From Nonomuraea montanisoli (lineage in GTDB: Bacteria; Actinomycetota; Actinomycetes; Streptosporangiales; Streptosporangiaceae): a stretch of DNA of 64,000 bases. Made by a program: the position numbers and the translations under genes. Each line of letters starts with the position of its first letter. Within the stretch, counting starts at the first letter, position 1. The stretch lies in assembly GCF_013363975.1 (NCBI RefSeq), contig NZ_JABWGN010000011.1, positions 309,588-373,587 of the forward strand, written 5' to 3'. Below are positions 33,649-55,831 of this stretch, piece after piece. The notes under the pieces are model-generated. The model ran no database searches. It was not told the origin of the DNA and saw only the letters and a program-made list of their open reading frames with translations.

Positions 33649-33658
33649 ACTCGTGACC

Positions 33659-35420: not shown

Positions 35421-35506
35421 TCCATTCGCCCTCGCGCTTTTCTCGGCTCCGGCGCCATTTCTCGTGATTCGGACGTCTGAATGATTGACCGGGCGGTGAT
35501 ATCCCG

Positions 35507-35518
35507 GCAACCGGTAGC
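35507..35518. promoter_or_regulatory. Candidate LacI operator before lacI
   Basis: GCAACCGGTAGC between amidohydrolase and lacI, sharing ACCGGTAGC and GCAACCGGT with the site before the importer operon. CCGG-centred sites are typical of LacI-family regulators. Confidence 0.55.
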
Positions 35519-35527
35519 ACCGGAACG

Positions 35528-38508: not shown

Positions 38509-38607
38509 GGTTTCGCACTTTCGGTCACGGCGGGCGCTCTCGCGGCGCCCGCCCTCGCGGACGGGAAGCCGCATGGCGGTGACGCACCGGCCACGGCGGC
38601 GGATCGG

Positions 38608-40646: not shown

Positions 40647-41446
40647 CGGTCGGCCTCCTGCCGGGCGAGGACGTCGGTGAAGCCCGCGAGCCGCTCGGTG
40701 ACCAGCATGACCACCACGGCGAGGACGAGCAGCAGCGTGCAGACCGCGGCGACGAGCGGGTCGAAGGCGAACTCGACGTGGTGCAGCATCGCGACGGGCA
40801 GCGTGGTCGTGCCGGGCCCGTTGAGCAGGAGCGACAGCGGCACGTTGTTGAACGAGGTCACCAGCGACAGCACGGAGGCCGCCGCCACGCCCGGGCCGAT
40901 CACCGGCAGCGTGACGCGCGTGAACGTCGCCCAGCCGCCCGCCCCGAGGCCCCGCGCCGCCTCCTCCAGCGACCGGTCCGCCTGGGCCAGCGACGCGCCC
41001 GTCACCCGCACGGCGTACGGCAGGAGCAGCACGGTGTGGCCGGCCAGCAGCGCGCCGAACGCGCTCACCCGGAAGGTCACCATGAGGGTCTGGAAGAGCG
41101 CGTAGCCGAGGACCAGTTCCGGCACGACGACCGGCAGCGTGAACAGCGTGCCGATCGCGCCGCGCGGCCGGGCGCCGCCGCGGTTCAGTGACAGCGCCAC
41201 CGGCAGGCCGAGGGCCAGCGCGAGGACCGTGCCGGCCACCGCGACCAGCAGGCTGGTGCGCAGCGCTTCGAGAAACGGCCCGTACGAGAGGGCCTGGGCG
41301 AACCAGCGCAGCGACAGGCCGCGCGGCGGGAACTCGATCGTGTCGCCCGCCGTGAACGCGACCCCCACGACCAGCAGGATCGGGCCGAGCAGGAAGGTCA
41401 GCGCGACGGCCGCGACCGCGCCCACGACGGGATGGCGGCGGGTCAT
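40634..41446 (-). CDS. ABC transporter permease (second)
   Basis: 270 residues, six membrane spans. The EAA loop EEAARGLGAGGWATFTRVTLP contacts the ATPase and is given here in part as EEAARGLGAGGWATF. ATG 41446 overlaps the upstream permease stop as ATGA. MetI-like family, forms a heterodimer with the neighbouring permease. Confidence 0.93.
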   Translation of the reverse strand: MTRRHPVVGAVAAVALTFLLGPILLVVGVAFTAGDTIEFPPRGLSLRWFAQALSYGPFLEALRTSLLVAVAGTVLALALGLPVALSLNRGGARPRGAIGTLFTLPVVVPELVLGYALFQTLMVTFRVSAFGALLAGHTVLLLPYAVRVTGASLAQADRSLEEAARGLGAGGWATFTRVTLPVIGPGVAAASVLSLVTSFNNVPLSLLLNGPGTTTLPVAMLHHVEFAFDPLVAAVCTLLLVLAVVVMLVTERLAGFTDVLARQEADRWRP

Positions 41447-42270
41447 GAGGGCGCCGCCTTCGCCGGCGCGCGTGCCGCGAGCGCGCCCGCGGCCAGCACG
41501 ATGACGGTCATGAGCAGGGCGACCGCGGCGGCCGACGACCAGTCGACGGTGACGTTGGCGTAGTCGTAGAGCAGCGTGGCCAGCGTCGGCGTGCGGGTGC
41601 CGCCGAGCAGCAGCGGCGTGGTGAACGCGGTGACCGCGCCGGCGAAGACCAGGGTCGCGCCGACGAGCACCCCGGGCAGGGCCAGGGGCAGCGCGACGCG
41701 GCGGAACGCGGAGCCGGCGGACGCGCCGAGCCCTCGGGCCGCGGCCTCCAGGTCGGGGTGGACGTGCGCGAACGCCCCGTACGCCGTGATGATCACCAGC
41801 GGGGTGAAGAGCTGCGTCAGGCCGACGACCACGGCGGTCTCGGTGTAGAGGAGCTGCGTCGGCCGCTCGGCCAGGCCGAGCCCGGTCAGGGCCCTGCTCA
41901 GCAGCCCGGTGCGGCCCAGGATCACCAGCCAGGAGTAGGTGCGTACGACGGTGCTGAGCAGGAGCGGGAAGACGGCCAGCGCGAGCAGCACGGCCCGCCG
42001 GCGCGGCGGGCCGCGCGAGATGAGGAATCCGACGGGCAGGCCGAGGAGCAGGCAGAGGCCCGTGACCAGGGCGGCGACGCGCACCGTGCGGGCCGCGGCC
42101 CGCCAGATGTGGTCGTCGGCGGCCAGCGCGCCGAGCCGGTCGGCCAGGCCGCCGTCGTCCACGCCCGCGGGGGCCGCCACCAGCGTGACGGCGACCGGGT
42201 AGAGGAAGACCAGGGCGAGCACCGCCAGACCGGGCGCGAGCAGCAGGCCGGTGGTCCGTCTTCGCCACAA
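41443..42270 (-). CDS. ABC transporter permease (first), TTG start
   Basis: 275 residues, six membrane spans, EAA loop LEAAARGLGASAGSAFRRV. First gene of the importer operon. The TTG at 42270 is chosen because a perfect AAGGAGG lies nine bases upstream and the protein then begins LWRRRTTGLLLAPG, right at the first span. An ATG at 42342 would add 24 residues, run through the ribosome site and cover the operator-like repeats, so it is unlikely. Periplasmic loop between spans 1 and 2 is long. Confidence 0.9.
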   Translation of the reverse strand: MWRRRTTGLLLAPGLAVLALVFLYPVAVTLVAAPAGVDDGGLADRLGALAADDHIWRAAARTVRVAALVTGLCLLLGLPVGFLISRGPPRRRAVLLALAVFPLLLSTVVRTYSWLVILGRTGLLSRALTGLGLAERPTQLLYTETAVVVGLTQLFTPLVIITAYGAFAHVHPDLEAAARGLGASAGSAFRRVALPLALPGVLVGATLVFAGAVTAFTTPLLLGGTRTPTLATLLYDYANVTVDWSSAAAVALLMTVIVLAAGALAARAPAKAAPS

Positions 42271-42315
42271 CGCGATCGTCCTCCTTCCCGGGTGAGGATG
42301 GAGCCGGGGGATGAA

Positions 42316-42335
42316 ACCGGTAGCCGCAACCGGTT
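42316..42335 (-). promoter_or_regulatory. Candidate LacI operator before the importer operon
   Basis: ACCGGTAGC (42316-42324) and GCAACCGGTT (42326-42335) lie back to back, 46-65 bases before the TTG start. AACCGGTT is a perfect palindrome. The same halves occur before lacI. Confidence 0.6.
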
Positions 42336-42340
42336 CCATC

Positions 42341-42740
42341 ACCCTAGGAACGCCCGGAAAAACGGGTCAACCCGCTCAATTCCGGACACATGGCCGGGGT
42401 TGGCAGGCGGCCTCACCTGGCCTTCCATCGCTCCACGCACGGTGATCGCGGCCGCGAAACCGCTGGTCATGGGCCCGGCGAAGGCCGGCGGGAAAAAGAG
42501 AAAGAAACGTCCGTTATCTAACCGTTACCAGGACGTCCATTCTTTGGTCATCTCCGATAAATCATCAGTTAACCTCGGGCGACCTCCGGTAACGATCAAT
42601 TCCTCTTACGTTGGGTGCACCGCCTGCTACCCCGTCGCGGTTGCCGAGCATTCCGCTCATGTGTTCACGTGTCATCCGGAACAGGGGGAGCCTTCAGCCG
42701 CACACCTGTCCTTTCTCCGGACCATCAAGGTTGACGTCGA
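42341..42740. promoter_or_regulatory. Intergenic control region between importer operon and php genes
   Basis: About 400 bp without a credible gene; lower GC than the surroundings around 42490-42610 (AAAAAGAGAAAGAAA and TAAATCATCAGTTAA stretches). CCGTTA occurs at 42511 and 42522 in direct repeat 11 bp apart, a spacing used by SARP-type activators, and an inverted form (GGTAACG) lies near 42590. No certain -35/-10 pair. It should hold the php promoter. Confidence 0.5.
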
Positions 42741-43955
42741 ATGTCCATTTCGCGGTTATCGAACGACGCCCTGATCGCCGGTCCCCCTCACGTGCTCATG
42801 GGGCCGGGCGGGGTCGCCGACCTGGCGGGGGCCGTCATGTCGGCGGTGAGCGGAACGGCCCGCCCGCCGTGCGCGCTGCTGGTCGTCGGGGGCGGGTTCG
42901 CCCGGCGACCGTGGCGGGAGCAAGTGCTCGCCGCGCTGCGCCCGGCGGCGGTACGCGTGGCCGTCCAGCCGGGCATGCCGACTCCCGAGTGTGTCGCGCG
43001 GCTGGCCGGCGAGGCCCGCGCGCACCGCGCCGACGTCGTCGTGGCGGTGGGCGGCGGAAGCGTCATGGACGCGGCCAAGGCCGCGGCGGCCCTGTCCGCC
43101 GCGCCCCTGTCCGCCGAGCGGACGGTTCAGGCGTGCGAGCACGGCGTCTCCGGCCCCGGCCTGCCGGTGGTCGCCGTGCCCACCACACCCGGCACCGGGG
43201 CCGAGGCCACCCCGTTCGCCACGATCTGGGACGTCGAGCGCCGCCGCAAGCTCTCCCTGCGCGGCGAGGCCGTCCGGCCCGCCGTCGCCGTCCTCGACCC
43301 CGCCCTGCTGGCCGGACTGCCCGGAGACCAGCTCGGCGCGAGCCTGCTCGACACGCTCGCCCAGGGCGTGGAGGCGGCCTGGTCCACCCGGTCGGACGAG
43401 CGGTCCGAGGCGCTGGGCGCAGCGGCGTGGGCCGAGCTGGCCACGCTCCTCGACCGGCCGCGCCCGCTGGGCCCGGCCGAACGCCGCGCCGTCCTGCTGG
43501 CCGGCCACTACGCCGGACGGGCCATCGCCATCGCGGGGACCACGATCTGCCACGCCCTCTCCTACCCCCTCACCCTGCGCCACGGCGTGCGCCACGGCCA
43601 CGCGTGCGGGCTCACCCTGGCGCCCGTCCTGCGCCACAACGCGGCCGTCACCGAGGCCGACTGCGCCGACCCGCGCGGGCCGGAGCGGGTGCGCGCGGCC
43701 ATCGCCGGCGTGGTCCGCGCCGCGGGCGCCGACGGCCCCGACGACCTGGCCCGGCGGGTGGAGGCGTTCCTCGCCGCGTCGGACCTGCCGCCCGTCACCG
43801 GGATCCGCGACGACGCGGACCGGATCGCCGCCGAGGCGCTCGGCTACGACCGCGCCGCGAGCAACCCGCGCCACGTCGACGCCCCGGCCCTGGCGCGGCT
43901 CCTGACCACCCTGCCCTGCCCCGATCGACTCCGTGGAGGCGGACATGCGCGTTGA
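42741..43955 (+). CDS. phpC: Phosphonoacetaldehyde reductase (iron-type alcohol dehydrogenase), PhpC-like
   Basis: Reduces phosphonoacetaldehyde to 2-hydroxyethylphosphonate, the step that makes early phosphonate synthesis proceed. 404 residues, group III iron alcohol dehydrogenase: VVAVGGGSVMDAAKA (103-114, NAD site), PTTPGTGAEAT, and metal ligands in GTTICHALSYPLTLRHGVRHGHA. ATG 42741, with AAGG upstream. Codon 6 is TTA (42756-42758), a likely bldA control point. First gene of the ten-gene php set; its last 11 bases overlap phpD. Role taken from the phosphinothricin pathway; the iron-ADH family itself is broad. Confidence 0.9.
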   Translation: MSISRLSNDALIAGPPHVLMGPGGVADLAGAVMSAVSGTARPPCALLVVGGGFARRPWREQVLAALRPAAVRVAVQPGMPTPECVARLAGEARAHRADVVVAVGGGSVMDAAKAAAALSAAPLSAERTVQACEHGVSGPGLPVVAVPTTPGTGAEATPFATIWDVERRRKLSLRGEAVRPAVAVLDPALLAGLPGDQLGASLLDTLAQGVEAAWSTRSDERSEALGAAAWAELATLLDRPRPLGPAERRAVLLAGHYAGRAIAIAGTTICHALSYPLTLRHGVRHGHACGLTLAPVLRHNAAVTEADCADPRGPERVRAAIAGVVRAAGADGPDDLARRVEAFLAASDLPPVTGIRDDADRIAAEALGYDRAASNPRHVDAPALARLLTTLPCPDRLRGGGHAR

Positions 43956-45279
43956 CGCGTACAAGGTCATGCACTGGATGAACGTGCGGAAGATGACGGC
44001 GGCGCAGGTCGCCGAGGCGTCCGGCGTCGAACCGGAGCGTTTCGCGGCCTCCCTGACCGGCGCCGGCGACGACGAGTGGCCCGACTCCATGGCCGCCGCC
44101 GTCGCGCGGACCCTGGTGATCGAGCCGGAGAAGCTGGCCGCCAGCGGCCGGCGCGACCTCACGGTGATCACCCGGACCGCGCGGGAGCTGCACGGCACGC
44201 GCCGCCCCATCCAGCGGGACGGCATCCACTTCTACAACTACTACACGATGGCCGCGCCGCCGGGCGCGGTCGCGCCGGTCATCCTCGACATCCTGTGCCC
44301 CGCCGACCGGGTCCCCGCGCTCAACAACGGGCACATGGAGCCGGCCATCACCGTGAACCTCGGCCCCGGCGACATCCACGGCCGCTGGGGCGAGGAGCTG
44401 GACGAGGCCACCTGGCAGGTGATGCGCGCCAACCGCGACGACGACGCCTGGATCGTCGGCGACTCCTACGTCGAGCCGTCGTTCTGCCCGCACAGCTACT
44501 CGCTGGTCTCCGACGCCCCCGCCCGGATCGTGTCGTACACCGGCCACTCCAACCTGGCGTCGCTGGTGGAGGACGTCAACGACTGGGCGGAGCGCCCCGC
44601 GCAGGAGCTGGTCGAATGGCTCGGCGACCACGGGCCGGACGGCCTGACCCCGTACCGGCTGGCCGTGGAGCTGCTGGCGCGGCGGGGACACACGCCCGAG
44701 TCGGCCGCCGCCATGCTCGGCATGAGCGGCGAGAAGCTGGCCGCCGCGCTGGAGGAGGGCTCCGACGGCGTGCTGCGCGAGCTGGGCTCGGCGCTCGGCC
44801 TCGACCACCGGATGCTGCTGCGGCCCGAGCGCAGGCACGACCGCGTGGGCAAGACGTACCGGGACGTGGCGGAGTGCCGGCGCGACGCGCGGCGCTTCCG
44901 CGGCTACCGGGCCACGTCGCTGGCCTGTGCCCCGCACCTGCCCGACCTCACCGGTCTCTACCTGCGGGTGGACGGCGACGAGGGTGAGGACCTGCGCGAG
45001 CTCGCCGAGACGCACTACCTGGTGACCGGCGGCGAGGTGACGCTCCACTGGACCGCCGCCGACGGCCGCGCCGCCTCGGCCCGGCTGGACGCGGACGGCA
45101 CCGCGTGGGTGGCGCCGTTCGTGGCGCACCGCTGGACCGGCGACGGCGCGCTGATCAAGCTCGGCTCCGGGCGCCACCTCAGCTACCTCGACCTGTACGA
45201 GCTGACCAACACCTACTCCGCCGCCGCCACCCTGCGCCGCGCCCGCCGCGACGGCCGTGGCTGGGGCTACGACTCGTGA
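43945..45279 (+). CDS. phpD: 2-hydroxyethylphosphonate dioxygenase (HEPD), PhpD
   Basis: Non-haem iron enzyme that cleaves 2-hydroxyethylphosphonate with O2 to hydroxymethylphosphonate and formate. 444 residues against 443 in the bialaphos enzyme, with matching ends (MRVDAYKVMHWMN and WGYDS). Iron ligands at H130 (NNGHMEPAI), E177 and H183 (DSYVEPSFCPHSYSL), active-site K16, R91 and Y99 all kept. The Glu ligand points to HEPD, not methylphosphonate synthase, which uses Gln there. Two cupin/HTH repeats are visible. ATG 43945 has GGAGG six bases upstream. Confidence 0.95.
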   Translation: MRVDAYKVMHWMNVRKMTAAQVAEASGVEPERFAASLTGAGDDEWPDSMAAAVARTLVIEPEKLAASGRRDLTVITRTARELHGTRRPIQRDGIHFYNYYTMAAPPGAVAPVILDILCPADRVPALNNGHMEPAITVNLGPGDIHGRWGEELDEATWQVMRANRDDDAWIVGDSYVEPSFCPHSYSLVSDAPARIVSYTGHSNLASLVEDVNDWAERPAQELVEWLGDHGPDGLTPYRLAVELLARRGHTPESAAAMLGMSGEKLAAALEEGSDGVLRELGSALGLDHRMLLRPERRHDRVGKTYRDVAECRRDARRFRGYRATSLACAPHLPDLTGLYLRVDGDEGEDLRELAETHYLVTGGEVTLHWTAADGRAASARLDADGTAWVAPFVAHRWTGDGALIKLGSGRHLSYLDLYELTNTYSAAATLRRARRDGRGWGYDS

Positions 45280-45290
45280 GGAGGAACCGC

Positions 45291-46298
45291 ATGCGCGTCG
45301 TCTACACCGACGCCGCCTGGTCGCTGGACGACGGCGGCCGGGTGGACCCGTCCCGGGCCGTCATCGAGCACGAGGTGTTCGGCCCTGACGTCGAGCTCGA
45401 CTTCGGGCTCCACGACGGCCGCTTCCTGCTGGACGGCCCCGAGTTCCACGAGCACGTGCGGGGCGCGTCCGCGCTGGTGATCTACCGCTGCCAGGTCACC
45501 CGGGAGCTGCTGGACGCCGTCGGGCCGAGCCTGAAGGTGATCGCCCGCAGCGGCGTCGGCGTGGACAACCTCAACGCCCCGCTGCTCGCCCGGGCCGGCA
45601 TCGCCGGCTTCAACATCCCCGACTACTGCGGCGACGAGGTCAGCACCCACACCCTGGCCCTCCTGCTGGCCCTGGAGCGCAACGTCTGCGTCCAGGACCG
45701 CCTCGTCAAGGGCGACCGGTGGAGCGTCCACGCGGGCGGCCTGCCGCGCCGGCTGGCCGTCCGCACCGCCGGCATCGTCGGCTTCGGCCGCATCGGCCGG
45801 GCCACCGCCCGCAAGCTGCGCGCCTTCTACGACCGGGTCGTCGCCTACGACCCGTACGTGCCGGCCGACCTGATGGCCGCGCACGGCGTGTCCCGCGCGG
45901 ACGACCTGGCGGAGCTGTTCGGCGCGGCCGACGCCGTGGTGGTCCACGCGGCGCTCACCGAGGAGAGCGACCGGCTGATCGGCGCGGACGCGCTGACGCA
46001 CGCCCGGCCGGGGACCCTGCTCGTCAACACCGCCAGGGGCCGCCTGGTCGACGTCGCGGCCGTGCTCGACGGCCTGGAGCGGGGGCGCCTGGGCGGCTTC
46101 GCCTCCGACGTGTTCTCCCCCGAGGACCCCAACGACGACCCGGTGGCCCGCAAGCTGCTCGAACGCGACGACGTGGTCGTGTCAGCGCACCGCGCCTTCC
46201 TGTCCGCCGAATCCGAACGCAGCGTACGGCGGCGCGTCGCCCAGGGCGTCGCCGCGGCGCTGCACGACTCCCCCGAGAGAGACCGGACGACATCATGA
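45291..46298 (+). CDS. phpE: Hydroxymethylphosphonate dehydrogenase (D-2-hydroxyacid dehydrogenase family), PhpE
   Basis: 335 residues. By pathway it oxidises hydroxymethylphosphonate to phosphonoformaldehyde with NAD(P). D-isomer hydroxyacid dehydrogenase fold: RSGVGVDNLN (87-95), GFGRIGRAT (164-172, nucleotide loop), VNTARGRLVD with catalytic Arg, FSPEDPNDDP with catalytic Glu, SAHRAFLSAES with catalytic His. ATG 45291 follows GAGGAGG. The stop overlaps pepM as ATGA. On its own it would be called a phosphoglycerate dehydrogenase-like protein; the pathway context decides. Confidence 0.9.
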   Translation: MRVVYTDAAWSLDDGGRVDPSRAVIEHEVFGPDVELDFGLHDGRFLLDGPEFHEHVRGASALVIYRCQVTRELLDAVGPSLKVIARSGVGVDNLNAPLLARAGIAGFNIPDYCGDEVSTHTLALLLALERNVCVQDRLVKGDRWSVHAGGLPRRLAVRTAGIVGFGRIGRATARKLRAFYDRVVAYDPYVPADLMAAHGVSRADDLAELFGAADAVVVHAALTEESDRLIGADALTHARPGTLLVNTARGRLVDVAAVLDGLERGRLGGFASDVFSPEDPNDDPVARKLLERDDVVVSAHRAFLSAESERSVRRRVAQGVAAALHDSPERDRTTS

Positions 46299-47227
46299 CA
46301 ATGACCACTTCCCAGAACCGGCGACCACGGCTGAGCGAGCCGGCGGACAGCCCGGGCGCGCAGCTCCGCGCGCTGCTCGCCCTGCCGGAGCCGACGCTCG
46401 TGATGGGCGCCCACGACGGGCTGAGCGCGCGCATCGCCGCCGAGGCCGGGTTCCCCGCGCTGTGGGCCTCGGGCCTGTGCATGTCCACCGCGCTGGGGGT
46501 GCGCGACAGCGACGAGGCGTCCTGGACCGAGCTGCTGGGGCTGGTCGCCAGGGTCGTGGAGGCCGCCGGCCTGCCGGTGCTGGTGGACGGCGACACCGGC
46601 TACGGCAACTTCAACACCGCCCGGCGCTTCGCCACCCAGGCCGAGCGGATCGGCGCCGCGGGCGTCTGCCTGGAGGACAAGGTCTTCCCGAAGATGAACT
46701 CGTTCGTGGGCGACGGGCACGTGCTCGCGCCGGTGGACGAGTTCTGCGGGAAGATCGCCGCCTGCCGCGACGCGCTGCGCGACCCCGACTTCGTGATCGT
46801 GGCGCGCACCGAGGCGCTGATCGCGGGCGCCGGGCTGCACGAGGCGCTGCACCGGGCCGAGGCGTACTGCGCGGCCGGGGCCGACGCCATCTTCATCCAC
46901 TCGCGCAAGCCGACCGTCGCCGAGATCGCCGAGTTCGCCCGCGCGTGGGACGGGCGGCTGCCGCTGCTCATCGCGCCGACCACGTACCACGCGACGCCGC
47001 TGGAGGAGTTCGCCCGCCTGGGGCTGTCCGGGGTGATCTGGGCGAACCAGAGCATGCGCGCCGCGGTCGCCGCGATGAAGCACGCCTGCGAGTCGCTGTT
47101 CGAGGAGGGGCCGGTCTCGCTGGAGCCGACGATCGCCTCGCTCGACGAGGTGTTCAGCCTGATGCGCTACCAGGACCTCGCCGACGACGAGAAGCGGTAC
47201 GCCGCGCCCCCGGAGAGCCGGGCATGA
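46295..47227 (+). CDS. pepM: Phosphoenolpyruvate phosphomutase
   Basis: Makes the first C-P bond by rearranging phosphoenolpyruvate to phosphonopyruvate, the entry step of nearly all natural phosphonates. 310 residues, isocitrate-lyase/PEP-mutase superfamily. Diagnostic EDKVFPKMNS at 127-136 (the EDKxxxxxNS signature), MGAHDGLSARIA, DGDTGYGNFN (98-107, Mg2+ site) and ARTEAL. ATG 46295 overlaps phpE; stop overlaps ppd. Equilibrium strongly favours phosphoenolpyruvate, so the adjacent decarboxylase is needed to pull it. Confidence 0.97.
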   Translation: MTMTTSQNRRPRLSEPADSPGAQLRALLALPEPTLVMGAHDGLSARIAAEAGFPALWASGLCMSTALGVRDSDEASWTELLGLVARVVEAAGLPVLVDGDTGYGNFNTARRFATQAERIGAAGVCLEDKVFPKMNSFVGDGHVLAPVDEFCGKIAACRDALRDPDFVIVARTEALIAGAGLHEALHRAEAYCAAGADAIFIHSRKPTVAEIAEFARAWDGRLPLLIAPTTYHATPLEEFARLGLSGVIWANQSMRAAVAAMKHACESLFEEGPVSLEPTIASLDEVFSLMRYQDLADDEKRYAAPPESRA

Positions 47228-48369
47228 TCGAGGCTCGCGCCCTGCTGGACGAGCTGGCCTCCCGTGGCGTCGCCGACGTCACGGGGGTGCCGTGCTCGTA
47301 CCTGACGCCGCTGATCAACCGGGTGGCCTCGGACCCGGCCGTGGGGTACGTGCGCGCCACCCACGAGGGCGAGGCCGTCGCCGTGGCGGCGGGCTGCTGG
47401 CTGGCGGGCGCGCCGGCGGCCGTGATCGCCCAGAACTCCGGCCTGGGCAACATGGTCAACCCGCTCACCTCGCTCAACCATCCGAGCCGCATCCCGGTCC
47501 CGGTGATCGTCACCTGGCGGGGCGAGCCGGGCCGGCCGGACGAGCCGCAGCACGAGCTGATGGGCGCCATCACGCCGGCGCTGCTGGAGGTCATGCGGGT
47601 CCCTCATGCCGTGCTGCCGTCCGAGCCGGCCGCGCTCGGCGGCTGCCTGGACGCGGGCTGGGCCGCGATGGAGCGGGAGTCGCTGCCGTACGCCTTCGTG
47701 CTGCGCGAGGGGGTCGTCGCACCCGAGCCGCTGGAGGAGCGCGAGCCGCACCCGCCCGCGGTCCCGGAGATCGTCCGGCACGGCGCGGGCGGCCGGCCCC
47801 CGACCAGGACCGAGGCGCTGGAGCACCTGCTCGGCGTCCTGCCCGGCACGGCCGCGGTGGTGTCGACGACCGGCAAGACGAGCCGCGAGCTGTACACCCT
47901 CGCCGACCGGCCGCAGCACTTCTACCTCGTCGGCGCGATGGGCTCGGCCACCGCGGTCGGGCTGGGCGTGGCCCGGCACACCGACCGGCCGGTGGTGGTC
48001 GTGGACGGGGACGGCGCCGCCCTCATGCGGCTGGGCACCCTCGCCACGATCGCCGCCCACCCCGCTCCCCGGCTGGTCCACGTGCTGCTGGACAACGGCG
48101 TGCACGACTCCACGGGCGGCCAGCGCAGCCTCGCCGCCCAGGTGGACTTCCCCGGGCTCGCCGCCGCCTGCGGGTACGCCCGCGTGCACGACTGCGGCGA
48201 CCTGGCCGGATTCGTGGACGCGGTCAAGGACGCGCAGGCCGGTGACGGTCCCGCGTTCGTCCGGCTGCGGATCCGGCCCGGCTCACCGGCCCGGCTCGGC
48301 CGGCCGCGCGTCCACCCGTCGGAGGTGGCGCGGCGCTTCCGCGCCTTCGTCACGGGAGGTGACCGATGA
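47224..48369 (+). CDS. ppd: Phosphonopyruvate decarboxylase
   Basis: Thiamine diphosphate enzyme converting phosphonopyruvate to phosphonoacetaldehyde and CO2, which drives the mutase forward. 381 residues in the two-domain (PYR then PP) short form typical of Ppd. Seen: GVPCSYLTPLIN, THEGEAVAVAAG with the cofactor-activating Glu (46-57), AQNSGLGNMVNPLTSL, and the ThDP motif GDGAALMRLGTL ending in DNGVHDSTGGQ. ATG 47224 and stop each overlap neighbours by ATGA. Confidence 0.96.
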   Translation: MIEARALLDELASRGVADVTGVPCSYLTPLINRVASDPAVGYVRATHEGEAVAVAAGCWLAGAPAAVIAQNSGLGNMVNPLTSLNHPSRIPVPVIVTWRGEPGRPDEPQHELMGAITPALLEVMRVPHAVLPSEPAALGGCLDAGWAAMERESLPYAFVLREGVVAPEPLEEREPHPPAVPEIVRHGAGGRPPTRTEALEHLLGVLPGTAAVVSTTGKTSRELYTLADRPQHFYLVGAMGSATAVGLGVARHTDRPVVVVDGDGAALMRLGTLATIAAHPAPRLVHVLLDNGVHDSTGGQRSLAAQVDFPGLAAACGYARVHDCGDLAGFVDAVKDAQAGDGPAFVRLRIRPGSPARLGRPRVHPSEVARRFRAFVTGGDR

Positions 48370-48950
48370 TCGAGCGGACCCGGGACCCCGTCGGCGTGAT
48401 CCACGGCCGGTTCCAGCCGCTGCACCTCGGCCACCTGGAGTACCTGCTGGCCGGGGCGGAGCGGTGCGACGTGCTCGTCGTCGGCATCACCAACCCCGAC
48501 CCCGAGCTCACCGCCTTCGAGGCCACCGACCCGGAGCGGGGCTCGCCCGAGGCCAACCCGTGCACCTTCTACGACCGGTACCTGATGGTCGAGGGGGCGC
48601 TGCGCGAGGCGGGCGTCCCCGCGGAGCGGCTGCGGATCGTGCCGTTCCCGCACGGTTTCCCCGAGCGGCTGCGCCACTACGCGCCGGTCGAGGCCACGTA
48701 CTACCTGACCGTCTACGACGAGTGGGGCGAGACCAAGGTGGCCAGGTTCGGCGCCCTCGGGCTGCGGACCGAGGTCATGTGGCGGCGCACGGACAAGCCG
48801 ATCAGCGGGAGCCGGGTCAGGCGGGCCATCGCCGGCGGCGGCGACTGGCGTTCGCTGGTGCCGCCCGCGGTCGCCGCCGTGATCGAGGAGAGGAGGCTCG
48901 ATGAGCGCATCCGGCAAGCTCTATCTGATCGCGCTGTGCGGGGGAGCTGA
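48366..48950 (+). CDS. phpF: CTP:phosphonoformate cytidylyltransferase, PhpF
   Basis: 194 residues of the NMN adenylyltransferase-like fold: HGRFQPLHLGHLEYLL (13-28) with HxGH, and ISGSRVRRAI with the ISxTxxR-type motif near 150. In the phosphinothricin pathway the homologue activates phosphonoformate with CTP to CMP-5'-phosphonoformate. Alone it would read as nicotinamide-nucleotide adenylyltransferase. ATGA overlap with ppd. Its last 50 bases overlap phpG, whose ribosome site lies inside this gene. Confidence 0.9.
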   Translation: MIERTRDPVGVIHGRFQPLHLGHLEYLLAGAERCDVLVVGITNPDPELTAFEATDPERGSPEANPCTFYDRYLMVEGALREAGVPAERLRIVPFPHGFPERLRHYAPVEATYYLTVYDEWGETKVARFGALGLRTEVMWRRTDKPISGSRVRRAIAGGGDWRSLVPPAVAAVIEERRLDERIRQALSDRAVRGS

Positions 48951-50172
48951 CCGGCCGAGCCGGGCGCTGGGCGGGCGCACGCCGTTCGAGGCCGCGCCCA
49001 CCCCGCACCTGGACCGGCTGGCCACGGAGGGCCGCAACGGGCTGCTGGAGGTCATCGCCGACGGCGTGCCGCCCGAGTCCGACTCCGGCGCGATGGCGCT
49101 GCTCGGGTACGACCCGGCGGTCTACTACACCGGGCGCGGCCCGCTGGAGGGGTACGGCAACCGCTACTGGGACCCCGACGGGCACTCCGTGGCCTTCCGC
49201 ATCAACTTCGCCAGCCTGAACGAGGAGACCGGCCGCCTCGACCGGCGCACGTCCCGCGACCTGACGGACGAGGAGATGGAGCTGCTCGTCGCGGAGATCC
49301 TGGAGCAGGTGCGGCTCGCCCCGGACATCGGCGTCAACCTCACCGGGTGGGGACGGCACCGCGGCATCCTCGCCTTCAGCAGCAGGAACAGGCCGCTGTC
49401 GGGCGAGGTGTCCAACACCGACCCGGGGTTCGTCAAGGAGGGGGCGTTCGGCCTGCCGGTCGCCGACCATCCCGACCGGCCGCTGGCCGCCCGGGCGCTG
49501 GTGGACGACCCGGCCGCGCACCTGGTCGCCGAGCTGGTCAACTCCTTCGTCGAGGCGAGCGCGCGGGTCCTTCGCGCCAGCGAGGTCAACCGGCGGCGCG
49601 CGGCGGCCGGCCGCAAACCGGCCAACGTGCTGCTGGTCCGCGACGGCGGGCACCGGCTGCCCGACCTGCCGCCGGTCAGGGGACGGGTCTCCATGTACGG
49701 GCAGGTGCCGGCCGAGCGCGGCCTGGCCCGGCTCATCGGGGCCGAGTTCACCACGGCCAAGCCCGCGCCCGGCCAGCCCGAGCCCGACTTCTACGCCCGG
49801 CTGCTGCCCAGGCTGCTCGCCGACCCGGCCGACGTCGTGTTCGCGCACATCAAGGGACCCGACGAGCCGGGCCACGACAACCAACCCGAGGAGAAGACCC
49901 GCGCCGTCGCCGACATCGACGCCCACCTCGCAGGGCCGCTGCGGGCGGCGCTCGGCCCGTCCGACACCCTCGTCGTCACCTGCGACCACGCCACCCCGTG
50001 CGAGGCCGGCATCCACACCGACGACAAGGTGCCGCTCGCGGTGGCCGGGCCCGGGATCACCCCCGACGGGGTCACGTCGTTCGGCGAGGCCGCGGCGGCC
50101 CGCGGCGATCTGCCGATCAAGCGCGCCAGCGAGCTGATGCCCTGGCTGCAGAGCCTGCGGGGATCGCCATGA
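48901..50172 (+). CDS. phpG: Phosphoglycerate mutase-like protein (ApgM type), PhpG
   Basis: 423 residues, alkaline-phosphatase superfamily, archaeal-type cofactor-independent phosphoglycerate mutase layout. Probably supplies 2-phosphoglycerate for PhpH (pathway inference). The phosphoserine nucleophile region PESDSGAMALLGYDP is kept, as are HIKGPDEPGHD and TCDHATPCEAGIHTDD metal sites. At the N-terminus, where the family has DGxxD, the sequence is LCGGADRP: Cys13 replaces the first metal-binding Asp. ATG 48901 follows AGGAGAGGAGG. The stop overlaps phpH as ATGA. Confidence 0.88.
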   Translation: MSASGKLYLIALCGGADRPSRALGGRTPFEAAPTPHLDRLATEGRNGLLEVIADGVPPESDSGAMALLGYDPAVYYTGRGPLEGYGNRYWDPDGHSVAFRINFASLNEETGRLDRRTSRDLTDEEMELLVAEILEQVRLAPDIGVNLTGWGRHRGILAFSSRNRPLSGEVSNTDPGFVKEGAFGLPVADHPDRPLAARALVDDPAAHLVAELVNSFVEASARVLRASEVNRRRAAAGRKPANVLLVRDGGHRLPDLPPVRGRVSMYGQVPAERGLARLIGAEFTTAKPAPGQPEPDFYARLLPRLLADPADVVFAHIKGPDEPGHDNQPEEKTRAVADIDAHLAGPLRAALGPSDTLVVTCDHATPCEAGIHTDDKVPLAVAGPGITPDGVTSFGEAAAARGDLPIKRASELMPWLQSLRGSP

Positions 50173-51470
50173 CCCCGGTCAGGAACGCCGTCACCGGGCT
50201 GCGGCTGCGCGGCATCCTCGACTCGCGCGGCCGTCCGACCGTGGAGGCCGACGTGCGCGCCGGGGACGCGTGGGGCCGCGGCTCCTGCCCGGTGGCCATC
50301 GCGCCGGGCCGCCTGGAGCGCCGCCGCGGGCTGCGCACCGGCGAGCTGGGCGACCTCGGGGACGGTCAGGTGGTCCGCCTGCTCCGCGACAGCCTGACCG
50401 GCGTGCCCCTCTCCGGCCAGGACGACCTCGACCGGCGGCTGCGCGACCTGGACGACCGGCACGAGCTCGGCGCCGACGTCACGCTGGCGGTGTCGCTGGC
50501 CCACGCCAGGGCGCTGGCGGCCGGGGCCGGGGTGTCGCTGCGCGGGTGGATGTGCGGGCTGTTCCCGCACCCGCCGCGCATGCCGCGGCTGCTGGTGAAC
50601 GCCTTCTCCGGCGGCATCCACCACGACGGGGCGCCCGACTCGTTCCAGCAGATCATGGTCATCCCGGACACCGGGACGCTGACCGGGGACGTGCGGGCCG
50701 CCCTGGAGATCTACGGCACGCTGGAGCGGCGGCTGGCCAGTGGGGTGCTTTCCGGTGACGGCGGGCGGCCTTCCGGCGGCGGCGGGCCGGTGGCGATCTC
50801 GGCGTCCAGCGGCATGCTGGCCCCCGGCTGGGACTGCGTGCGGCGGCTGGAGGAGCTGCGCGCGGCGTGCGGGGAGCACCGGGCCGGCCTGGGCGCGGAC
50901 GTGGCGGCCGAGCACCTGCTCGCGGGCCCCGGCCGCTACCGGTACGAGGGCCGGGAGCACGCCTCGGCCGGGTTCGCGGCGCTCCTGCTCGACCTGGCCG
51001 TGGCCCACGGCATCGCGTACCTGGAGGACCCGTTCGACCCCGCCGACACCGAGACCTGGCGGGCGTTCCTGCCCGCGGCGCGCGAGGCGGGCGTGACCGT
51101 GGTCGGCGACGACCTGTTCGCCTCCGACTCCCGCCGGGTCGTGCCCGGCCTGGCCGACGCGGTCCTGCTCAAGCCGAGCCAGGCCGGGACGGTCACCGCC
51201 ACGCTGGAGGCCGCCGCGGCCGCCCGCGCGCTCGGCCTGCGGCTCGTCGTGTCGCACCGCTCCGGCGAGACCGAGGACACCGCCATGTGCGACCTCGCGG
51301 TGGCGGTCGGCGCGGAATGGATCAAGATCGGCGGCCCCCGCAGGGGCGACCGCATCGCCAAGTACAACCAGCTCATCCGGCTGGCCGAGACCCTCACGGA
51401 CGACCCCGTCCAGGAAACCACTCACGAAGGAGCAGCGGCATGTCACGCGCCAAGCAGTTCAAGGACCTGA
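50169..51470 (+). CDS. phpH: Enolase-like carboxyphosphonoenolpyruvate synthase, PhpH
   Basis: 433 residues of the enolase fold. In the known pathway it joins CMP-5'-phosphonoformate and 2-phosphoglycerate to carboxyphosphonoenolpyruvate. Kept from enolase: GGIHH, metal ligands in YLEDPFD and GDDLF, the catalytic Lys in [19 protein letters not shown] and [12 protein letters not shown]. Changed: Gln161 where enolase has the Glu of QEF, and the GDEGG loop is replaced ([10 protein letters not shown]), removing another acid. That fits a non-hydrating chemistry. ATG 50169; the last 31 bases overlap the next gene. Confidence 0.9.
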
Positions 51471-52336
51471 TGCTCGCCCCGGAGATCCTGGTCGTGCCCA
51501 GCGCCTACGACGCCCTGAGCGCCAAGGTGATCGAGCAGGCCGGTTTCCCCGCCGTCCACATGACCGGCTCGGGCACCTCCGCCTCCATGCTGGGCATGCC
51601 CGACCTCGGGTTCACCACCATCACCGAGATGGCGTGGAACGCAAAGAACATCTGCCTGGCGGTCGACCTGCCGGTGATCATGGACATCGACGCCGGCTAC
51701 GGCAACGCGATGAACACCTGGCGGTGCGTGCGGGAGTTCGAGCGGGCCGGCATCGTCGGCGGACACCTGGAGGACCAGGTCGTGCCGAAGCGCTGCGGCC
51801 ACCTGGAGGGCAAGCGGCTCATCTCCACCCGCGAGATGGTCGGCAAGATCGAGGCGGCCGTCGAGGCGCGCACCGACCCCGACTGGGTGCTCATCGCGCG
51901 CACCGACGCCCGCGAGAAGCTCGGCCTGGACGAGGCGATCCGCAGGTCCAAGGAGTACGTCCAGGCCGGCGCGGACTGCATCTTCCTGGAGGCCATGCTC
52001 AACGCCGACGAGATGAAGCGGGTCCGGGACGAGATCGACGCGCCGCTGCTGGCCAACATGGTCGAGGGCGGCAAGACCCCGTGGATGACCACCCAGGAGC
52101 TGGAGGCCCTCGGCTACAACCTGGCCATCTACCCGCTGTCCGGCTGGTACGCCGCCACCGCGATCCTGCGCAAGGTCTTCGCCGCGCTCCGCGACGAGGG
52201 CACCACCCAGGACTTCTGGAAGCGGGCCGACCTCCAGATGACCTTCGACGAGCTGTTCGAGGTGTTCGGCTACTCCAAGATCTCCGAGCTGGAGGCGCGC
52301 TTCGTGGTCAAGGAGGACGACGGCCGTGTTTCGTGA
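51440..52336 (+). CDS. bcpA: Carboxyphosphonoenolpyruvate phosphonomutase
   Basis: Rearranges and decarboxylates carboxyphosphonoenolpyruvate to phosphinopyruvate, forming the second C-P bond. 298 residues, isocitrate-lyase/PEP-mutase superfamily. [12 protein letters not shown] (Mg2+ site, 81-92), [17 protein letters not shown] (111-127) with the KxCGH catalytic loop in place of PepM's EDKxxxxxNS, IFLEAML and MVEGGKTPW. Very close to the bialaphos-producer enzyme through most of its length, by memory. ATG 51440 follows AAGGAG. This gene separates the cluster from ordinary phosphonate clusters. Confidence 0.95.
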
Positions 52337-53714
52337 CGGCGCCCTCCAGCCCGCGGACCGGCGGATCGCGGTGCGCAGCCCCTGGGACGGCGAGACGGTC
52401 GGCACCGTGCCCGCCGACACGCCCCGGGAGCTCGACGAGGCGATCCGCCGCGTCCGGGCGGCCTGGCGGCCGATGCCGCCCAGGGAGCGGTCGGCGGTGC
52501 TGCGCCGCGCCGCCGCGCTGCTCACGGACCGGGCCGCCGAGACGGCCACGCTGATCGCCCGCGAGTCGGGCGTGTGCGTCGCCGAGACCGGCAAGGAGGT
52601 CGAGCGGGCCGCCGCCAACCTCACCGTGGCCGCGGAGGAGGCGGAGCGGCTGCGCGGGGAGAGCATCCCGCTGCCCGCGCAGGACCGGCTGGCGGTGACC
52701 GTGCTCGAACCCGCCGGGATCGTCGCGGCGCTCACCCCGTTCAACCGGCCGCTGAACCAGGTCGTCGTCAAGGTGGCGCCGGCCGTGGCGGCCGGGTGCG
52801 CGGTCGTGCTGAAGCCGTCGGAGAAGACGCCGCTGACGGCCCTGGCCTTCGCCGCCCTGCTGGTCGAGGCCGGGCTCCCGCCCGAGCTGCTGGTGGTGAC
52901 GACGGGGGCGCCGGGCGAGCTCGGCCCGGCGCTGGCCGGTCATCCCGAGGTGGACATGGTGACGTTCACCGGCTCGGTGCGCACGGGCCGGGCCGTGGCG
53001 GCGGCCGCGGCGGGCCGCAAGCTGCTGCTGGAGCTGGGCGGCAACGACCCGCTGATCGTGCTGCCGGACGCCGATCTCGACCTGGCGGCGCGGCTCGCGG
53101 CCGACGGCGCCTTCGCCACGGCCGGGCAGTCGTGCCGCGGCGTCAAGCGGGTGATCGCGGTCGGCGAGGTCGCCGACCCGCTGGTGTCGCGGCTGGTGCA
53201 GGCGGCCCGGGAGCGGCGGGCGGGCGACCCGCTCGACCCGGCGACCCAGGTGGGGCCGCTCGTGAGCGAGGAGGCGGCGGCCGAGGTCGAGCGGCGGATC
53301 CACGACGCGGTCGCCGCGGGCGCCAAGCCGCTGTGCGGCGGCGAGCGGAAGGGCGCGCTGCTCACGCCCGCGGTCCTCGACCACGTGCCGCCCGGCGCGG
53401 AGCTGGTGGCCGAGGAGACCTTCGGCCCCGTGGCCCCGGTCATCCGGGTCGGCGACGTGGACGAGGCGATCGCGGTGGCCAACGGCACCGCGTACGGGCT
53501 GCAGTCCGGCGTGGTGACCTCGGACGTGACGGCCTTCATGCGGATCGCGACGGGCCTGCGCGTCGGGGCCGTCAACCTGAACGCGGGGCCGCAGTTCGAC
53601 TCGCCGCACATCCCGTTCGGCGGCGTCAAGGCGAGCGGGCTCGGCCGGGAGGGCGTCCGCTACGCCATCAGGGAGATGAGCGTGACGAAGACCGTCACGC
53701 TCCCCCTCCCCTAG
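52326..53714 (+). CDS. phpJ: Phosphonoformaldehyde dehydrogenase (aldehyde dehydrogenase family), PhpJ
   Basis: 462 residues. Expected to oxidise phosphonoformaldehyde to phosphonoformate, the substrate of PhpF. ALDH marks: [11 protein letters not shown] with N140, [16 protein letters not shown] (NAD loop), catalytic E236 in LLELGGNDP and catalytic C270 in [39 protein letters not shown] 52326 sits after GGAGGACGACGGCC and overlaps the mutase gene by 11 bases. Last gene of the set; a strong hairpin starts 23 bases after the stop. Confidence 0.9.
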
Positions 53715-53737
53715 GTCCCGGTTCTGCCGGTCTCCTC

Positions 53738-53775
53738 GCCGGGCCGGCGGGTCAGCTCTGACCCGCCGGCCCGGC
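53738..53775. terminator. Bidirectional terminator after the php operon
   Basis: Perfect 18-bp arms at 53738-53755 (GCCGGGCCGGCGGGTCAG) and 53758-53775 with a 2-base loop. Serves two convergent genes and overlaps the last codons and stop of the small minus-strand gene. Confidence 0.85.
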
Positions 53776-53937
53776 CAGCTCGACGATGGCCGCCGCCGCG
53801 TCGTACGTGATCAACTGCACGCCCATGCCGCCGCACCCGCACCGGACGTAGATGACCCGTCCGAGCGAGGTCGAGTGGCCGGACAGGATCTCCTGCTCCG
53901 CCGCCGAGCCGCAGACTTCGCACGCCTTCAGGTCCAT
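53752..53937 (-). CDS. Small Cys-rich (zinc-ribbon-like) protein, 61 residues
   Basis: MDLKACEVCGSAAEQ has a CxxC and RCGCGGMGVQLI a CxC, together a plausible four-Cys zinc site. No family recognised. ATG 53937, with GAAGGTGG upstream. The stop falls in the arm of the terminator hairpin. Divergent from the CGNR gene with about 60 bp between starts. A link to the phosphinate genes is possible only by position. Confidence 0.6.
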   Translation of the reverse strand: MDLKACEVCGSAAEQEILSGHSTSLGRVIYVRCGCGGMGVQLITYDAAAAIVELAGPAGQS

Positions 53938-53998
53938 GACCCCACCTTCACAGAAGGGCGTAATGTCATTCCCGCCGTATTTAGATTACGATGGATTC

Positions 53999-54559
53999 AT
54001 GGCGAGAACCAGCCCCACCGAGGTGACCGGCTACCGCAACGACGGCGTGGGCACGGCCGTCGCGCTGGTCAACGCGGTCACGGCCGACGCCGGTGACCCC
54101 TCCCCCGAGGCCCTCGGCGCGCTGCTGGCCTCGTACAACTTCAAGGTCGACGGCCCGGTGAGCGACGACGAGGCCGAGGCCCTGCGCCGGTGGGCGCGGC
54201 GGCTGCGGCCGGTCTTCGCCGAGACCGACGAGGCGCGGGCCATCGACCTGCTCAACGGCGTGATGGCCGAGGTGCCCATGCACCCGCACATCTCCGACCA
54301 CGGCGAGGGCCCGCACCTGCACTACGGCCCGCCCGGCGCCGTGCTCGTCGACCGCATCCGGGCCAACACCGCGGTCGGGCTGGCGTTCGTGATCTGCGAG
54401 CTGGGCGCCGCCCGGCTCGGCGTCTGCCTCGACGCCGCGTGCGAGCGCGTCTACGCCGACGTCTCGCGCGGCCCGCGCCGGCGCTACTGCTCCAAGACCT
54501 GCCTCAACCGCAACACGGTCGCCGCCTACCGGGCACGCCGGGCGTCGGCCCCCGCCTGA
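53999..54559 (+). CDS. CGNR zinc-finger protein (ABATE-like N-terminal domain), putative regulator
   Basis: 186 residues. Helical N-terminal domain (ALLASYNFKV, EALRRWARRLRPVF), then the C-terminal zinc finger LGVCLDAACERVYADV through YCSKTCLNRNTVAAY, where CLNR stands in the CGNR position. Such proteins are thought to be transcription regulators. ATG 53999 lies 11 bases after a TAGATT -10-like box (53982-53987), so the leader is very short. Starts the unit containing the MFS gene. Candidate regulator of the neighbouring php genes by position only. Confidence 0.85.
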   Translation: MARTSPTEVTGYRNDGVGTAVALVNAVTADAGDPSPEALGALLASYNFKVDGPVSDDEAEALRRWARRLRPVFAETDEARAIDLLNGVMAEVPMHPHISDHGEGPHLHYGPPGAVLVDRIRANTAVGLAFVICELGAARLGVCLDAACERVYADVSRGPRRRYCSKTCLNRNTVAAYRARRASAPA

Positions 54560-54613
54560 CCAGCCGATGACGGCGTCCGCTCGGGACGCCTCGCCCCAGA
54601 AGGGACCGGTCCC

Positions 54614-55831
54614 GTGAGCCGTCCGGACGCCCGCCGCAACCTGCTCATCCTCGCGGGGACGCTGCTGCTGCTGAAGTCGACCTGGTTCTCCGCGACGGCG
54701 GTGATCCCGCAGGTGCGGCAGGAGTGGCAGCTCACGCCCGATCTCGCGGCCTGGCTCACCATCTCCGTGCAGTGGGGGTTCGTGGCGGGGGCCGTGCTGT
54801 CGGCGGTGTTCGTCGTGTCCGACGCGCTGCCGCCGATCCGGCTGATCTTCCTGAGCTCGATCGGCGCCGCCGTCGCCAACCTGGCGCTGCTGCTGACCCA
54901 CGACGCGCTCACCGGCAGCCTGGCCCGCTTCGCCACCGGGCTGTTCATCGCCGGCGTCTACCCGCCGTCGCTGAAGCTCATCTCCACCTGGTACCGCGAC
55001 GGCCGCGGGGCGGCGATGGGGCTGCTGGTCGGGGCGCTGACCGTGAGCTCCGGCGTCCCGCACCTGATCAACGGGCTCGGCGGGCTGAACTGGCGCACCG
55101 TCATCGTGGCCACCTCGGTGCTCACCCTGGCCGGCGGCCTGGTCACGCTGACCGTGGTCAAGGAGGGGCCGTACCCGTTCCCCGCCGCGGTGCTCGACCC
55201 GCGGCAGGCCCGGCGCATCCTGCGCGACCGCGGCACCCGGCTGGCCATGGTCGGCTACCTGTGCCACATGTGGGAGCTGTACGCCATGTGGACGTGGTTC
55301 CTGCTGTTCTTCTCGGCGGCGCTGCGCCTCCACGGCATGGACGGCTCGCTCCTCGGGGTCTACGTCACCTTCGCCGTCTTCGTCATCGGCGGCGTGGCCA
55401 ACTACACGGGCGGCGTGCTCGGCGACCGCTTCGGCCGCGAGCGCACCGCGATCGTCATGATGGGCGCCTCGGCCGCCTGCGCCGCGTTCATCGGGCTGCT
55501 CATGGGGGCGCCGCTCTGGCTGCTCATCCTCGTCAGCCTGGTGTGGGGGTACGCCGTCGTGGGCGACTCGGTGCAGTTCTCGGCGCTGGTCACGGAGCTG
55601 GCCGACCAGAGCTACGTGGGCACGGCGCTGACCCTGCAGATGGCGTTCGGGTTCCTGCTGACCGGGGCGACGATCTGGCTCGTCCCGGCGGCCGAGCAGG
55701 CGGTCGGCTGGCGGTGGGCGTTCGCCGTGCTCGCGGTGGGGCCGCTGGTGGGCATCCTGGCGATGCGCCGCCTGCTGCGCGTACGCGGCGAGCGCGTGCC
55801 GGCCTCAGCGGGAGCGGCCGGGACGTCCTGA
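54614..55831 (+). CDS. MFS transporter
   Basis: 405 residues with twelve predicted spans. The motif between spans 2 and 3 is weak, but the second-half equivalent GGVLGDRFGRER is clear. Related by look to nitrate/oxalate-antiporter-like MFS proteins (GLFIAGVYPPSLKLISTWY). GTG 54614 with GGGACCGG upstream. Substrate unknown. Its place 0.9 kb after phpJ makes it the best candidate in the window for export of the phosphinate product (inference). Confidence 0.87.
   Translation: MSRPDARRNLLILAGTLLLLKSTWFSATAVIPQVRQEWQLTPDLAAWLTISVQWGFVAGAVLSAVFVVSDALPPIRLIFLSSIGAAVANLALLLTHDALTGSLARFATGLFIAGVYPPSLKLISTWYRDGRGAAMGLLVGALTVSSGVPHLINGLGGLNWRTVIVATSVLTLAGGLVTLTVVKEGPYPFPAAVLDPRQARRILRDRGTRLAMVGYLCHMWELYAMWTWFLLFFSAALRLHGMDGSLLGVYVTFAVFVIGGVANYTGGVLGDRFGRERTAIVMMGASAACAAFIGLLMGAPLWLLILVSLVWGYAVVGDSVQFSALVTELADQSYVGTALTLQMAFGFLLTGATIWLVPAAEQAVGWRWAFAVLAVGPLVGILAMRRLLRVRGERVPASAGAAGTS

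Follow-up and report, generated by a model that had tools for sequence, protein, structure and literature searches.

The window analyzed here is a 64,000-nt stretch of the 9.76-Mb genome of Nonomuraea montanisoli (labeled G000), whose assembly comprises 82 contigs and is, by the tool's figures, 99.98% complete and 1.21% contaminated. On its plus strand, at 42741 to 53714, it carries ten full-length, intact genes in the order phpC, phpD, phpE, pepM, ppd, phpF, phpG, phpH, carboxyphosphonoenolpyruvate (CPEP) mutase, and phpJ. These very probably form one intact, overlapping operon that, judging from its predicted proteins, would lead from phosphoenolpyruvate to phosphinopyruvate. The bialaphos (PTT) cluster holds the same ten genes in identical order. 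The cassette, its gene order, and its occurrence in Nonomuraea are known, and the locus brings no new chemistry. What is new is an empty site in the related genome G169, which defines a 19.4-kb island, and a cassette without a known ending. In the literature covered, which left the key cluster papers and their supplements outside, we found no cassette lacking an ending, no island boundaries, and no ending built on citrate synthase, PrpD, and isocitrate dehydrogenase (IDH). Few loci are capable of forming a C-P-H bond.

An earlier note on this DNA had described ten genes on one strand as an uninterrupted and almost gapless unit. This is borne out: all ten lie at the positions it gave, and under the starts adopted here, neighboring reading frames overlap at each of the nine junctions (by 11, 4, 4, 4, 4, 50, 4, 31, and 11 bases).

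Gene identities and predicted pathway

Four of the proteins exceed the cut-offs of NCBIfam equivalog models. These are phosphoenolpyruvate mutase, PepM (46295 to 47227; TIGR02320, 327.9 bits versus 319.55); phosphonopyruvate decarboxylase, Ppd (47224 to 48369; TIGR03297, 387.5 versus 312.5); the phosphonoformyl transferase PhpG, of the phosphoglycerate mutase superfamily (48901 to 50172; NF038358, 683.1 versus 545); and CPEP mutase (51440 to 52336; TIGR02319, 541.7 versus 420.05), which scores 313.2 against a cut-off of 354.4 with the prpB model TIGR02317. PhpD (43945 to 45279), the 2-hydroxyethylphosphonate dioxygenase (HEPD), gave no match at an E value of ≤0.001 in Pfam and NCBIfam searches; it aligns over its full length to the solved PhpD structure 3g7d in the PDB (E = 3.2e-147).

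PhpC, PhpE, PhpF, PhpH, and PhpJ have family-level matches only, and their names come from synteny; PhpF and PhpH are homologous to their counterparts in the Streptomyces viridochromogenes locus. phpC (42741 to 43955) encodes an iron-containing alcohol dehydrogenase (PF00465, 4.2e-35), phpE (45276 to 46298) a member of the D-2-hydroxyacid dehydrogenase family (PF02826, 1.5e-42), and phpJ (52326 to 53714) an aldehyde dehydrogenase (PF00171, 2.8e-147). The phpF product (48366 to 48950) is cytidylyltransferase-like (PF01467, 1.3e-6), its PDB matches being NMN adenylyltransferases (best E = 9e-12). The phpH product (50169 to 51470) is enolase-like (PF00113, 1.1e-37) and falls below the cut-off of the enolase model TIGR01060 (194.5 versus 300). 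Aligned to the strain's housekeeping enolase (used without its first residues), PhpH keeps the stretches VAAEH, EDPF, and GDDLF and the lysines of LLKPSQ and IKIGGP; it has FQQ and SASSG at positions where the enolase shows IQE and GDEGG.

The key residues listed in the earlier note were found in each protein. The PhpD ligands H130, E177, and H183, which we take to be its 2-His-1-Glu iron site, are numbered correctly provided that phpD starts at 43945. The motif EDKxxxxxNS reads EDKVFPKMNS in PepM, the mutase loop KxCGH reads KRCGH, HxGH reads HLGH in PhpF, and the proposed catalytic cysteine of PhpJ sits in GQSC.

Following the reaction order of the characterized php/PTT pathway, PepM would make phosphonopyruvate from phosphoenolpyruvate, Ppd would convert this to phosphonoacetaldehyde, and PhpC would convert phosphonoacetaldehyde to hydroxyethylphosphonate. 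PhpD would then yield hydroxymethylphosphonate, which PhpE and PhpJ would take to phosphonoformate. PhpF would form the CMP derivative of phosphonoformate, PhpG together with PhpH would give carboxyphosphonoenolpyruvate, and CPEP mutase would turn the latter into phosphinopyruvate. C-P-H chemistry in this strain is a fair prediction from these genes.

Occurrence and conservation of the cassette

Of the 345 genomes of the order, 6, counting that of the window strain, have a PhpG match at E ≤ 1e-100, and 5 exceed the curated cut-off. The rarity asserted in the earlier note stands on these counts. Novelty in kind does not, because Nonomuraea candida has the same ten genes and is reported (PMC12723261) to make two H-phosphinates, 2-phosphinomethylmalic acid and desmethylphosphinothricin. 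Within the same literature coverage, that paper was the only one found to link Nonomuraea to these compounds.

We compared nine actinobacterial genomes with the cassette: the window strain, Nonomuraea roseoviolacea subsp. carminata (G171; strain DSM 44170, locus L007), N. candida (G143; strain NRRL B-24552, locus L008), a member of another genus of the family (G313), Plantactinospora (L011), Actinoallomurus (L012), S. viridochromogenes DSM 40736 (L009, L040 to L042), Actinobacteria bacterium OK074, and Kitasatospora phosalacinea (L010, L043). The cassette is complete in eight of the nine; phpC and ppd were not found in the 21 kb examined of Actinoallomurus. A species-level collection, searched with a single protein query that recovers close relatives only, contained 27 loci encoding a PhpG relative, 7 actinobacterial and 20 from Clostridia. 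CPEP mutase and PhpD are encoded in all seven actinobacterial loci, and phpC and ppd are present in six. When eight proteins were concatenated, the resulting unrooted tree set N. montanisoli, N. candida, N. roseoviolacea subsp. carminata, and G313 apart from the PTT type and from the Plantactinospora/Actinoallomurus type.

The cassette proteins are 92 to 100% identical to those of the near relative N. roseoviolacea subsp. carminata, with 5 to 11% of fourfold sites changed. No protein of the cassette is better conserved than CPEP mutase, with identities of 92% to N. candida, 90% to G313, 90% to Plantactinospora, and 79% to S. viridochromogenes; its neighbors in the cassette are 69 to 80% identical to their N. 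candida counterparts. A recent swap of the mutase gene between lineages was considered and rejected, as fourfold sites changed relative to N. candida amount to 34% in CPEP mutase and 28 to 41% in the neighboring genes. Since its silent sites have diverged like those of its neighbors, strong constraint explains the conservation better. Silent sites of the cassette generally diverge far more than the proteins do, as the figures for CPEP mutase against N. candida illustrate.

A partly similar locus is present in genome G053 (L036), where phpC-, phpE-, pepM-, ppd-, phpF-, phpG-, and phpJ-like genes lie within 19.9 kb. This locus had no phpD or phpH match, and its sole CPEP mutase match is the pepM-like gene itself. 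The G053 pathway perhaps stops at a CMP-phosphonoformate derivative.

Endings of the pathway

In the PTT type (S. viridochromogenes, K. phosalacinea, and OK074), genes that we take to encode PhpK (P-methylase) and PMS come after the cassette, and an aconitase-like gene, presumably that for Pmi, precedes it. PF00682 supports the PMS assignment, and aconitase domains support Pmi. Used as genome-wide protein queries, PMS, PhpK, and Pmi had no close counterpart anywhere in the N. montanisoli assembly: PMS matches are partial (32 to 35% identity), PhpK matches reach 23 to 27%, and the Pmi query returned an ordinary aconitase (58%) and a LeuC-like match. The three PTT-type genomes have proteins 70 to 100% identical to the same queries. 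In the six compared genomes outside the PTT type (N. montanisoli, N. candida, N. roseoviolacea subsp. carminata, G313, Actinoallomurus, and Plantactinospora), the best PMS matches are partial at 31 to 33%, those to PhpK lie at 25 to 27%, and Pmi again retrieves an ordinary aconitase.

The earlier note had allowed that the locus might share the order of a characterized bialaphos cluster, with the later genes just outside the window. The order is indeed identical; the later genes PMS, PhpK, and Pmi were searched for in the genome, as was PrpD, and none was found. An HMGL-domain gene at 22797 to 24584 was tried as a PMS candidate and rejected, with 28% identity over 173 residues and similarly weak matches in 9 of 9 genomes searched.

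A different set of genes accompanies the cassette in N. candida (L039:10596-13998) and G313 (L035:7721-11729). In both, a minus-strand operon encoding citrate synthase, an MmgE/PrpD protein, and an NADP-dependent IDH lies 5 to 6 kb from phpC and is adjoined by a BTAD-type regulator gene (L047/L048). The operon's proteins, classified by Pfam on the G313 copies, are 73 to 80% identical between the two genomes. This operon is likely a non-orthologous late phosphinate pathway. We propose that its enzymes, which would be unrelated or only distantly related to PMS, Pmi, and a dehydrogenase, take the place of these on the way to desmethylphosphinothricin. None of the three N. candida proteins was matched in the window. 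Among 54 genomes of the genus, PrpD was matched at E ≤ 1e-60 in two, N. candida and, at 35% identity, G178; N. montanisoli had no such match. Going by the PF00285 match list alone, a citrate synthase with a score like the operon's is missing in N. montanisoli, G169, and G345; in OK074, a similarly scoring one lies elsewhere in the genome.

A third ending was seen in Plantactinospora (L011:14915-20056) and Actinoallomurus (L012:14783-19720), where genes for two aminotransferases, a short-chain dehydrogenase, an amidohydrolase, and a Rieske protein follow phpJ, with an Nramp-family transporter gene upstream. The Pfam assignments were made on Plantactinospora and transferred to Actinoallomurus by homology. 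Of the nonribosomal peptide synthetase and N-acetyltransferase genes expected beside the cassette in a PTT or phosalacine cluster, none was recognized in the part of the window whose genes were scanned, from about 31.7 to 64 kb; no search for them was made elsewhere in the window or in the genome.

A 19.4-kb island with a divergent operon

Comparison by blastn with a contig of the close relative G169 (C66:307001-360000), which does not figure in the set of six PhpG-containing genomes, gave flanking pieces of 89 to 98% identity. Window position 34404 corresponds to 316943 and position 53765 to 316936 on that contig. As these two positions adjoin in G169, the intervening 34405 to 53764 (19,360 bases) constitutes an island. 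At the left edge, an MBL-fold gene (33653 to 34453, plus strand) has its stop displaced into the island: the G169 frame ends after ...MVLEI, and the window version extends 15 residues farther. On one comparison only, this run-on favors an insertion in N. montanisoli over a loss in G169. The MBL-fold protein shares 60% identity over 249 residues with one encoded in the Plantactinospora php operon (L011:8654-9409), and the gene is also carried by G169, which lacks php genes.

The earlier note's view of the ten genes as the whole unit was incomplete, as the island also contains a divergent operon on the minus strand, which that note missed. It comprises genes for a LacI-family regulator (34413 to 35741; PF13377 and PF00356; start uncertain, with the gene caller placing it at 35378), an M20 amidohydrolase (35528 to 36778; TIGR01891, 261.2 versus 153.75), an adenine-deaminase-like amidohydrolase (36775 to 38574; TIGR01178, 427.9 versus 472.5, below the cut-off), and an ABC importer. 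The importer genes are those for a solute-binding protein (gene call, 38608 to 39657; PF13416, 1.5e-18 for 38608 to 39627), an ATPase (39654 to 40646), and two permeases, one at 40634 to 41446 (gene call; PF00528, 2.7e-11 in the longer frame 40634 to 42268) and one at 41443 to 42342 (PF00528, 8e-15; start uncertain, gene caller 42222). The best NCBIfam model for the ATPase is that of the 2-aminoethylphosphonate transporter component PhnT2, at a score below the cut-off (TIGR03265, 330.3 versus 457.7), which may be taken as a hint and no more. Among the matches listed from the 54 genus genomes, the region 34413 to 42400 is matched over its length only in N. montanisoli and N. roseoviolacea subsp. 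carminata. The ATPase/permease stretch alone (about 2.1 kb) has 68 to 70% DNA identity in at least 13 Nonomuraea genomes without PhpG, and the occurrence of such transporters in php-less genomes weakens the hint of phosphonate transport.

No transposase or integrase and no exporter or resistance gene was recognized among the scanned genes of the island. The G+C content is 74.7% in the island and 74.0% and 72.6% in the flanks. The longest word common to the two island ends is 8 bases, and a target-site duplication was not shown. A downstream CGNR regulator and MFS transporter (53852 to 55831) were rejected as cluster members, as this DNA is also present in G169, which has no cassette.

Predicted product and alternative readings

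Neither the PTT late genes nor an N. candida-type PrpD was found, and the pathway is therefore predicted to run to phosphinopyruvate and from there either into housekeeping enzymes or to an undescribed product. Three housekeeping enzymes of the strain, citrate synthase, aconitase, and isocitrate dehydrogenase, might treat phosphinopyruvate like oxaloacetate. This would lead to phosphinomethylmalate and desmethylphosphinothricin-like H-phosphinates, which we infer to be the most likely ending, with an even chance of being correct.

Several points weigh against the operon as drawn and against its ending in housekeeping metabolism. Because N. candida has the linked citrate synthase, PrpD, and IDH genes, its products do not show the same for a strain without that operon. 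The 82 contigs of the assembly make it possible that a late gene was missed, and the genome-wide late-gene queries covered PMS, PhpK, Pmi, and PrpD, the N. candida-type citrate synthase and IDH being queried within the window. PhpC, PhpE, PhpF, PhpH, and PhpJ owe their names to family matches and synteny only. A promoter and terminator scan gave no result, which says little for a GC-rich actinomycete.

It is possible, and distinctly less probable, that a reaction such as transamination or reduction channels phosphinopyruvate into an undescribed H-phosphinate without condensation with acetyl-CoA and that the divergent amidohydrolase/importer operon serves this product. The missing PTT late genes and N. 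candida-like PrpD (E ≤ 1e-60) are consistent with such a route, as are the shared island, the best (sub-cut-off) score of the importer ATPase to a 2-aminoethylphosphonate transporter model, and the different endings of php loci elsewhere, in Plantactinospora and, by homology, Actinoallomurus. Against it, no tailoring enzyme for such a compound was identified, and the transporter genes may be passengers, given the 13 or more PhpG-less genomes with a similar stretch. A stronger version, in which the island is a self-contained phosphinate system ending at phosphinopyruvate, makes an undescribed H-phosphinate that bypasses the condensation of the bialaphos and N. candida pathways, and uses its importer and amidohydrolases for product uptake or hydrolysis, seems rather unlikely, and slightly more so given the similar transporter genes of those genomes.

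Alternatively, a once full phosphinate cluster could have lost its late genes, leaving a cassette that is silent or decaying and makes no product. Both the failure to find late genes and the lack of a recognized exporter or resistance gene in the island would fit. We consider a remnant improbable, however, with ten frames intact and overlapping and proteins still 92 to 100% identical to those of the near relative at 5 to 11% changed fourfold sites. That the CPEP-mutase-like protein is a methylisocitrate lyase and the product a phosphonate is most improbable: the protein belongs to the methylisocitrate lyase superfamily and its PDB matches are so named, but its score is about 120 bits above the TIGR02319 cut-off, it reaches neither of the two prpB cut-offs, and it is the best-conserved protein of the set, 79% identical to its S. 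viridochromogenes counterpart.

A PhpF-PhpG-PhpH trio in Clostridia

In the 20 clostridial loci of the species-level collection (L013 to L029 and L031 to L033), PhpG and PhpH homologues are always adjacent, and a PhpF homologue is in the same locus in 17. By tblastn (E ≤ 1e-8), phpF, phpG, and phpH were the only cassette genes matched there, and none of the 20 genomes, for which assembly completeness was not given, had a PEP-mutase superfamily match at E ≤ 1e-8. Of the 20 clostridial PhpG proteins, the three tested all score above the cut-off of the NCBIfam phosphonoformyl-transferase model; of the 20 PhpH proteins, six were aligned, and all six share the changes of actinobacterial PhpH in the enolase motifs. 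Against close kinship, clostridial and actinobacterial PhpH are 31 to 38% identical, no higher than the 34 to 37% between actinobacterial PhpH and enolase, and in a small tree, enolase groups beside clostridial PhpH. Either the family name is wrong for these proteins or the trio acts outside phosphonate chemistry. In two loci (L027:2467-12440 and L025:280-10305), the trio stands in a tight gene row with HD-CE/ATPase, DUF4231/SLATT, PPDK_N-domain, and uncharacterized 322-aa proteins (Pfam on L025), an arrangement that recalls defence operons; PADLOC, run on L027, gave only two weak matches (E = 0.004 and 0.008).

Comparison with known systems

By its predicted PepM and Ppd, HEPD-type dioxygenase, PhpF-PhpG-PhpH, and CPEP mutase, the window locus would belong with the php-type phosphinopyruvate cassettes. 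The N. candida locus is composed of the same ten genes in the same order, with proteins 69 to 92% identical, and differs in having an amidohydrolase gene, an MFS gene, and the citrate synthase-PrpD-NADP IDH operon beside its cassette; no such linked set was found in the window. The PTT cluster of S. viridochromogenes DSM 40736 likewise has the ten genes in this order (48 to 79% identical) but has its own PhpK and PMS genes after them and the aconitase-like Pmi gene before phpC, none of which has a close relative in the window's genome. The phosalacine cluster of K. phosalacinea carries the same cassette (51 to 78% identical by tblastn) and differs in the same three genes, its own PhpK, PMS, and Pmi, as in PTT, not being found in the window's genome. 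The php loci of Plantactinospora and Actinoallomurus share the cassette with CPEP mutase, the latter without phpC and ppd matches, and differ in their aminotransferase/dehydrogenase/amidohydrolase/Rieske ending, with no close PMS relative there.

The comparison thus separates a portable ten-gene phosphinopyruvate cassette from endings that differ: PMS/Pmi/PhpK; citrate synthase/PrpD/IDH; aminotransferases/dehydrogenase/Rieske protein; and, in the window strain, none found. It makes testable whether plain tricarboxylic acid cycle enzymes finish a phosphinate, and the window strain and its empty-site relative G169 form a pair for asking what the island does.

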